Shown: in pieces, positions 10,426 to 11,196 of the stretch
Position numbering within the stretch: the first letter of the stretch is position 1
Layout of the letters: each line of letters begins with the position of its first letter
Notes under the pieces: model-generated
What the model was told of the DNA's origin: nothing
Databases searched by the model: none
The model's input: the letters and a program-made list of their open reading frames with translations, nothing else
Assembly: GCA_023055355.1 (NCBI GenBank)
Contig: JALJCS010000056.1
Location: forward strand, 2,108,001-2,172,000
Source: Agelaius tricolor
Lineage: Eukaryota; Chordata; Aves; Passeriformes; Icteridae
DNA: 64,000 bases
Direction of reading: 5' to 3'
Made by a program: the position numbers and the translations under genes

Positions 10426-11196
10426 TCATGCACTCTCTGGTATTCTAAAGGAACTCTGGGGATAGGGATTAGTGGAGGGAGACCATGGGAGAGGGGAAAG
10501 GGTGGTAGGAATTTGTGGGAACATAAAAAAGGGGTAATAGGACAATGGAAAGAAGAAGGGGAAAGTGGGAGGGGGGTAGGAAGGCCACAGAAATTGGGGA
10601 AGGGTATTAGAAATAGGACTTATCGGACTGGAAGGTTCTTTTATTATAGACATGGGCTTTTGAATGCAGAGCAGCTTGCACGTGTTCTGTGCTTTTCTTG
10701 CTTTTAGGCTGTTGCTGGGGCTTGATGGTTGTTGGTTTTGGGTTCTATTTCCTTGGTAGACATGTGGAGGACTTCTATGATGTAGATAATATTTTACAGG
10801 TTTGTAGTCTGGAGCATGTTTACTGCCTTGTACTGGAACTCCACCAGGTCCTGTCACATCGGCTGCTTGGGGGCCTTTTCTTCCTTGTACTATATTAAAT
10901 TCCACAATTTCTCCATCTCCTAAACTGGGGAGATATTTCCTGGGGTTATTCTTTTTTATAGCAGTCTGATGAACAAACACATCTTCTTTGTTATCATTCC
11001 GAGTTATGAAACCATATTTGGTTTTTACATTGAACCATTTTACTGTCCCCAAAACGTTCATGGCAAGGACTTTTTTACCTTTGCCAGTGGGTTTGTGTTG
11101 GTGTTGCTGGTGCGCTGCCGTATGAAATGCATTCTGCTCCTGGTGCTGACGGCTGTGCTCAGGCTCGGCCCTGTCCTGTGCTGGAATTGAACACAC
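10426..11196 (-). CDS. YBX1-like: Captured Y-box / cold-shock domain protein in provirus P2
   Basis: An uninterrupted frame of 256 codons ending at TGA (10426-10428). Residues about 46-120 form a complete cold-shock domain, the nucleic-acid-binding fold of vertebrate Y-box proteins: the G-T-V-K-W-F-N strand, the RNP1 site (KYGFI, in place of the usual GYGFI), the RNP2 site (VFVHQT), the N-N-P-R-K segment and the T-G-P-G-G-V-P-V-Q-G-S-K end, which resembles YBX1 most. A short Y/R-P-P motif follows as in YBX1, but the rest of the C-terminus is rich in P, F, Y and S and lacks the alternating basic/acidic islands. The first codon shown is GTG only because the frame is read from gag: the -1 frame is open from the slippery site at 11247-11241 straight into it. 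An ATG at 11061-11059, at the start of the domain, could start a shorter protein. Vertebrate Y-box genes are multi-exonic, so this is a cDNA-derived capture. It replaces pro-pol. Confidence 0.95.
   Translation of the reverse strand: MCSIPAQDRAEPEHSRQHQEQNAFHTAAHQQHQHKPTGKGKKVLAMNVLGTVKWFNVKTKYGFITRNDNKEDVFVHQTAIKKNNPRKYLPSLGDGEIVEFNIVQGRKGPQAADVTGPGGVPVQGSKHAPDYKPVKYYLHHRSPPHVYQGNRTQNQQPSSPSNSLKARKAQNTCKLLCIQKPMSIIKEPSSPISPISNTLPQFLWPSYPPPTFPFFFPLSYYPFFMFPQIPTTLSPLPWSPSTNPYPQSSFRIPESA

Follow-up and report, generated by a model that had tools for sequence, protein, structure and literature searches.

How does the domain of a host RNA-binding protein come to stand where a retrovirus keeps its polymerase, and what might it do there? 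The question is raised by a 64,000-nucleotide stretch of the Agelaius tricolor genome (assembly GCA_023055355.1, contig JALJCS010000056.1, forward-strand positions 2,108,001 to 2,172,000; hereafter the window), in which an endogenous provirus, P2, carries a Y-box type cold-shock domain (CSD) behind gag. In this study, we found that at least three proviruses share the gag-CSD junction. The YBX1-derived segment in them appears to have arisen by recombination between a retrovirus like P6, a second provirus of the window, and family B, a set of compact CSD-carrying elements with their own long terminal repeats (LTRs), and the resulting Gag-CSD fusion likely aids RNA packaging or stability. We give this reading as a whole a probability of roughly 0.6.

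The P2 provirus and the polymerase slot

P2 is an LTR-to-LTR element on the minus strand (9171-14205) with an intact gag and a 6-bp target-site duplication (TSD). The features on which the argument draws are, in window coordinates:

9165..9170, no strand: TSD ACGGAG, 3' side of P2
9171..9828, minus strand: 3' LTR of P2, identical to the 5' LTR at 650/658 positions
9829..9840, minus strand: polypurine tract AAAAGAGGGAGA, upstream of the P2 3' LTR
9829..10135, minus strand: remnant of the transmembrane (TM) part and 3' end of env; internal env deletion at 10135/10136
10136..10238, minus strand: P6-like env start with an acceptor-like TTTTCAG
10239..11168, minus strand: block without P6 similarity, the probable recombined segment, shared with family B
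10426..11196, minus strand: CSD frame as first listed, GTG start, -1 relative to gag
10429..10812, minus strand: Pro/aromatic-rich tail, residues 129-256, common to family B; likeness to the YBX1 tail clear only at GPGGVPVQGSKHAPD
10813..11076, minus strand: YBX1-type CSD with conserved flank, residues 41-128; W54, F63, F74 and H76 kept
11238..13106, minus strand: P2 gag, intact 622-codon frame with Gag_p24 and Gag_p24_C domains
11241..11247, minus strand: slippery heptamer A AAA AAC at the gag end; -1 frame open into the CSD frame
13527..13544, minus strand: putative primer binding site (PBS) of P2, read as TGGCGACCAACGTGCGGC
13548..14205, minus strand: 5' LTR of P2, 658 bp, TG...CA
14206..14211, no strand: TSD ACGGAG, 5' side of P2
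52607..61285, plus strand: P6, the relative used for comparison, with pro-pol where P2 has the CSD

Gag p24, the slippery heptamer, the 6-bp TSD and the PBS, which we take to be tRNA-Lys-like in P2 and in family B alike, are those of an endogenous betaretrovirus-like element. The gag matrix shows a likeness to Gag_p10 that stays under the Pfam cut-off, and of env only the start is left, joined to the TM end. A scan of viral contigs gave no match.

The initial annotation had described a TSD-flanked provirus containing an intact 256-codon frame with a complete CSD (RNP1 KYGFI, RNP2 VFVHQT), and each of these points held: the duplication and the paired LTRs are as listed above, both RNP motifs are in the frame, and its residues 50-116 match Pfam PF00313 (E 4.9e-24). 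Among solved structures the best matches are YBX1 CSDs (155.7 bits), and at the sites that set the host YBX1 exon apart from that of YBX3 (GPGG/GPDG, VQG/VEG, GSK/GSR) P2 has the YBX1 letters. In a tree built without YBX2 or YBX3 rows, the songbird CSD set is separated by a 100/99 branch and stands next to YBX1. Judged by its RNP motifs and its clustering with YBX1, the P2 CSD is a member of the Y-box protein family, YBX1 branch. The candidate nucleic-acid-contact residues W54, F63, F74 and H76, presumably involved in binding, are conserved. The host YBX1 gene (contig C28) has several exons, and two that lie apart there adjoin in P2, the host intron being absent, which shows a spliced origin. 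Host sequence of spliced origin thus lies within one provirus, inside its TSDs.

Comparison with P6 defines what the CSD has displaced. The two proviruses are similar at 11169-14205 (84.6%), and the similarity resumes from 10238 downwards; the 10239-11168 block between has no other match within the window, and 3.58 kb of P6 sequence has been replaced in P2, not interrupted. At the place of the CSD, P6 has the protease-polymerase that the initial annotation assigned to it (RVP, RT, RNase H and integrase; pol frame of 1185 codons). Because P6 reaches Pro-Pol through this heptamer and this frame, the CSD takes the Pro-Pol translational slot in P2, where the -1 frame behind the heptamer is open for 271 codons, via LNKERSFSQRYDKNRV, into the CSD frame. 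The frame first listed at 10426-11196 is real, and its bounds need widening: its start is a GTG, it is open for 283 codons counted from 11277 (first ATG at residue 46), and the P6-dissimilar block extends further on the 3' side.

The ratio of nonsynonymous to synonymous substitution rates (dN/dS) for gag between P2 and P6 is 0.29, with one stop in P6 gag. P6-like gag matches all or nearly all of its length in at least 49 places, P2 and one further CSD-carrying locus (L014, below) included, and 44 of the 49 are stop-free (best 71 of 48,580 candidates). The P6 env (59259-60551) resembles Avian_gp85 and TLV_coat, a mosaic make-up in a betaretrovirus-like element. A further provirus without a long pol frame lies at 29570-33493, with a 300-bp terminal direct repeat (100%), a 388-codon frame without a Pfam match at the gag place and an env frame of 390 codons.

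The mobile chimera and its probable donor family

The CSD was used as query against the 1.16-Gb genome of the same bird (42 matches, 59/59 candidates scored). With the host YBX1 and YBX3 genes set aside, 24 non-host CSD places remained, of which P2 and 20 fetched loci (L009-L028) were studied; C21:10787864, C27:4458427 and C63:1213805 were left out. P2, L014 (contig C56, 416 kb from P2) and L027 (contig C9) have a common gag, heptamer and junction and are here called family A. The search for the junction proposed by the initial annotation was thus productive: a DNA query across it found at least three loci that carry it whole (best 40 of 100 candidates), and at the remaining 37 of the 40 scored places similarity ends at query positions 122-132, that is, at the junction. 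One junction at several loci, lost at exactly that point elsewhere, indicates that the chimera is mobile. The heptamer is present in all three family A copies, and so is the -1 frame, which has no stop within the 45 codons shown. The P2 flanks were sought at L014 and L027 and not found there. L014 is truncated within the 5' LTR, so that its own insertion flank is invisible, and again shortly after the start of the env surface subunit, a part that it retains and that is deleted in P2.

The other 18 of the 20 fetched loci have the block without the gag-CSD chimera and constitute family B. Direct-repeat pairs of 160-344 bp surround the CSD in nine of them; these LTRs start with TGTGG in most copies and end near CAACA or CTACA, with a PBS after and a purine tract before. 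Exact 6-bp TSDs, read by eye, were present in five of the nine copies (L009, L012, L013, L016 and L017), and L020 agreed at five of six letters; none was clear in L011, and L022 and L023 gave no resolved pair. The Kimura two-parameter (K2P) divergence between LTRs ranges from 0.020 to 0.137 (seven pairs), which suggests long-lived activity. A search with the B LTR gave 40 scored places, all matching at 79-100% (best 40 of 250 candidates). Contig C21 (14.8 Mb) is rich in these elements and may be the W chromosome, a chromosome described as a refuge of endogenous retroviruses (PMC8310711).

Family B also appears to tie its CSD to Gag. Six of the eight B loci tested have a matrix-like start (gag matches, E 7e-5 to 1e-6), and in L011 and L012 this is followed in a single frame by a Pro-rich linker and then the CSD. 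When the frame of L012 is applied, stops in the matrix-linker part number 0-2 in L011, L012, L013, L016 and L026 and at most four in the others; matrix or linker sequence is present in 14/18 B loci, the reference L012 counted. From this we infer a predicted matrix-CSD fusion in family B. A close autonomous parent, sought by the matrix, was not found, the best match being 43% (best 150 of 400 candidates; rows of at least 53% identity were taken as B or its remnants). In the same search, C57 and C84 gave at least 15 places with an open frame of 84-86 codons that resembles the gag matrix start, an amplified mini-frame (best 150 of 400 candidates).

Matches to the B linker occur in proteins of Zonotrichia, Junco, canary and Geospiza, with a weak one in a zebra finch protein; by N-terminus the match is strong in P0001, P0009, P0004, P0016 and P0103 and weak in P0012. 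The starling protein P0010 and the contig protein P0013 gave no match to it, and B is not shown there. A retroviral origin of the N-terminal extension of P0009, considered on its own, was dropped, only two other proteins having matched. In P0004 (Junco) and P0009 (Zonotrichia) the CSD is followed by a C-terminal piece of FCP1 (PF09309), which in P0004 lies within the CSD-family tail; it may be another piece acquired from the host or the product of joined gene models. The tail itself (10429-10812) is retained across families A and B, and a search with it outside the songbird family gave nothing (three proteins matched, all songbird or unnamed).

Both junctions of P2 resolve to recombination between a P6-like retrovirus and family B. 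At the 5' crossover (about 11164-11180), L014 and L027 read CACAGGAGGGGGCCGAGCC, P6 reads CGGGGGAGGGAAAAG and B (L009) reads CCGGGAGGGGGCCGAGCC; the switch point lies in GGAGGG, which both parents contain, and P2 itself is altered there. At the 3' crossover (about 10241-10244), L014 reads GAAAAACCATG then TCTTTTCAGTG, and B (L010) reads GAAAAACCATG then CTAAG. In B, sequence continues beyond both ends of the block. Capture through a splice donor at the 5' junction was set aside, P6 reading CAAGTACGG there and not CAGGTAAGA, and a host retrogene as donor, entertained from the proteins alone, was given up in view of the family B LTRs.

Family A is split from B at 100/100 in a DNA tree of 20 rows. 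In a tree rooted on YBX1 (without L020, L023, L024 and L025; bootstrap not settled), it is one clade (97/93) within an unresolved B radiation that includes the Zonotrichia, Junco, canary and zebra finch proteins. No direct transfer of the segment from a host transcript to the virus of P2 was found, the segment being that of family B. Since B has its own LTRs and linker, A lies inside B, and the linker occurs in proteins of other finches, a single old capture of YBX1 in the B lineage, handed later to a P6-like virus, is the most likely course on these sequence comparisons. The initial annotation, which had a spliced YBX1-like mRNA captured by the retrovirus and then spread, finds support for the spliced origin and the mobility and none for direct capture by the virus of P2.

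Selection, function and alternatives

In contrasts of P2 with 17 copies, CSD dN/dS was 0.18-0.50, with 16 of the 17 values below neutrality at p<0.05; the tail gave 0.45-0.80, with p<0.05 in 7/18. L020, with an insert within the CSD, was left out of codon and tree work, and L023 and L025 (<60 codons) out of the CSD contrasts. Further pairs, selected by us, gave 0.21 for the CSD and 0.74 for the tail (P2 vs L014); 1.07, 0.79 and 0.70 for the CSD and 0.15, 0.19 and 0.92 for the tail in three close B pairs with small counts; and 0.29-0.75 and 0.39-0.73, respectively, in five wider B pairs. YBX1 against 18 rows (47-53 codons) gave 0.11-0.27, which in part reflects the host's own constraint. The comparison across copies called for by the initial annotation divides: the CSD appears constrained in contrasts with P2, and the all-branch model is near neutral.

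The mechanism that we propose joins these elements. Copy-choice recombination between a P6-like retrovirus and the older family B would have created the chimera, in which -1 frameshifting at A AAA AAC would yield a Gag-CSD fusion, as family B would make a matrix-CSD fusion protein. The RNA would be mobilised in trans by P6-like helpers, whose gag frames are abundant, and a CSD tethered to Gag would be taken into particles and, by binding RNA, would promote the packaging or stability of the RNA of the element. The one feature common to the predicted reading frames of A and B is attachment to Gag, through the matrix in B and by frameshift in A. Gag of mouse mammary tumour virus (MMTV) is reported to be found with YB-1, and knockdown of YB-1 to reduce particle production (PMC4486188, which cites Bann 2014); virion production of human immunodeficiency virus drops on YB-1 depletion, via RNA metabolism (PMC6040738). 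A betaretroviral Gag thus works with YB-1 in assembly; MMTV uses the host protein, whereas the P2 element carries a CSD of its own. We further propose, as a tentative extension, a songbird lineage of satellite-like retroelements whose one lasting gene, a stolen YBX1 domain tethered to Gag, labels their RNA for helper particles; a second retrovirus would later have received this domain, again fused to Gag, in its polymerase slot.

Several results weigh against the account as a whole. The 17 P2 contrasts all share P2 and are non-independent. In an all-branch codon model of 19 rows, dN/dS was not clearly below 1 (twice the log-likelihood difference 3.6 for the CSD and 0.0 for the tail), and the medians of within-B pairs were 0.67 for both parts, values affected by decay after insertion and by frameshifts. 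For B, medians of 0.72 for the matrix (32 pairs) and 0.80 for the near-neutral linker (45 pairs) mean that the fusion frame is not proven. Among the three A copies the CSD frame is intact only in P2, L014 having stops in it and L027 being truncated within the CSD. The P2 tail lacks the Arg-rich part of YB-1 (4 Arg in 128 residues vs 35 in 184), and RNA folding gave no support for a stimulatory structure 3' of the heptamer (z -0.5 and -0.16).

Among other accounts of how the domain arrived, insertion into the provirus of a YBX1 processed pseudogene made by a long interspersed nuclear element would suit the spliced host sequence and is contradicted: the signs of it listed in the initial annotation were looked for, and the block has no A-run longer than six and flanks that share only two 5-letter words, while 3.58 kb of P6 sequence is replaced, the same junction recurs at three or more loci and the same block occurs in LTR elements. 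That a virus took up YBX1 mRNA directly, family B being its descendant, agrees with the splicing and with the gag-derived starts of both families, and is quite unlikely given that B has its own LTRs, PBS and linker, that B LTRs differ by K2P up to 0.137 against 8/658 sites in P2, that the linker recurs in the finch proteins named above, and that A is placed among B, whose sequence runs past both ends of the block.

As to function, the CSD might be a passenger without a role, inert filler that helpers carry along. The near-neutral all-branch model, the within-B medians and the stops in many copies are what such a passenger would leave; we consider it improbable in view of the P2 contrasts, whose separations lie within mobile lineages, and of the B pairs, the three close ones having CSD values as expected after insertion and the five wider ones 0.29-0.75. 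A protein that regulates transcription by feedback, through a Y-box in its own LTR, is a doubtful alternative suggested by the B LTRs. Of seven tested, one LTR from each copy, six hold CTGATTGG, which we take to be the Y-box core, with a second ATTGG in five of the six against 0.47-0.58 CCAAT/ATTGG expected from mononucleotide shuffles. CCAAT boxes are, however, frequent in LTRs and are bound by NF-Y too, and because the copies share descent the motif counts once, not six times. The P2 and P6 LTRs hold one ATTGG and no CTGATTGG, and L020 has neither, so that this account fits B and not P2. Packaging or stabilisation of element RNA is the reading that we prefer.

Relation to known systems

Acute transforming retroviruses make gag-onc fusions in which a host gene replaces pol. 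The chimera resembles them in having a host gene at the pol place, in the env start that L014 keeps and in its probable need of a helper; it differs in carrying no growth gene, in being germline and long-lived, and in using, in P2, a -1 frame instead of an in-frame fusion. Compared with YBX1/YB-1, the CSD is similar (69/88 residues identical to bird YBX1) and the Arg-rich tail is replaced by a different, Pro/aromatic one.

Capture of host genes by endogenous retroviruses is already known: PMC4299795 describes the crocodilian CrocERV29 (KIT-ligand) and CrocERV31 (nectin3), which, like P2, contain captured host mRNA at several insertions and whose frames are reported there to be under purifying selection. 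As described there, CrocERV29 has its cytokine between pol and env and CrocERV31 has an adhesion protein replacing env, whereas in P2 an RNA-binding domain replaces pro-pol; unlike theirs, the P2 gene follows a frameshift site and most likely reached the virus by way of another LTR family. Among the matches listed in our literature search, judged by titles and abstract openings and covering few subscription journals, no report of a bird retrovirus with a Y-box or cold-shock domain was found; PMC6523648 contains neither Y-box nor cold shock, and PMC11009239 neither of these nor YBX. Within the literature searched, four points are new: what kind of gene was captured, its place in the polymerase slot, its transfer at second hand and its double link to Gag.

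In summary, the cell's own YB-1 is known to assist retroviruses in assembly and RNA metabolism, and here elements carry its domain themselves. As the copies are many and differ in age, comparative genomics can test what the domain does. Should the packaging reading hold, it shows a defective element persisting by means of its own RNA-selecting protein and a captured host gene moving between retroelement lineages.
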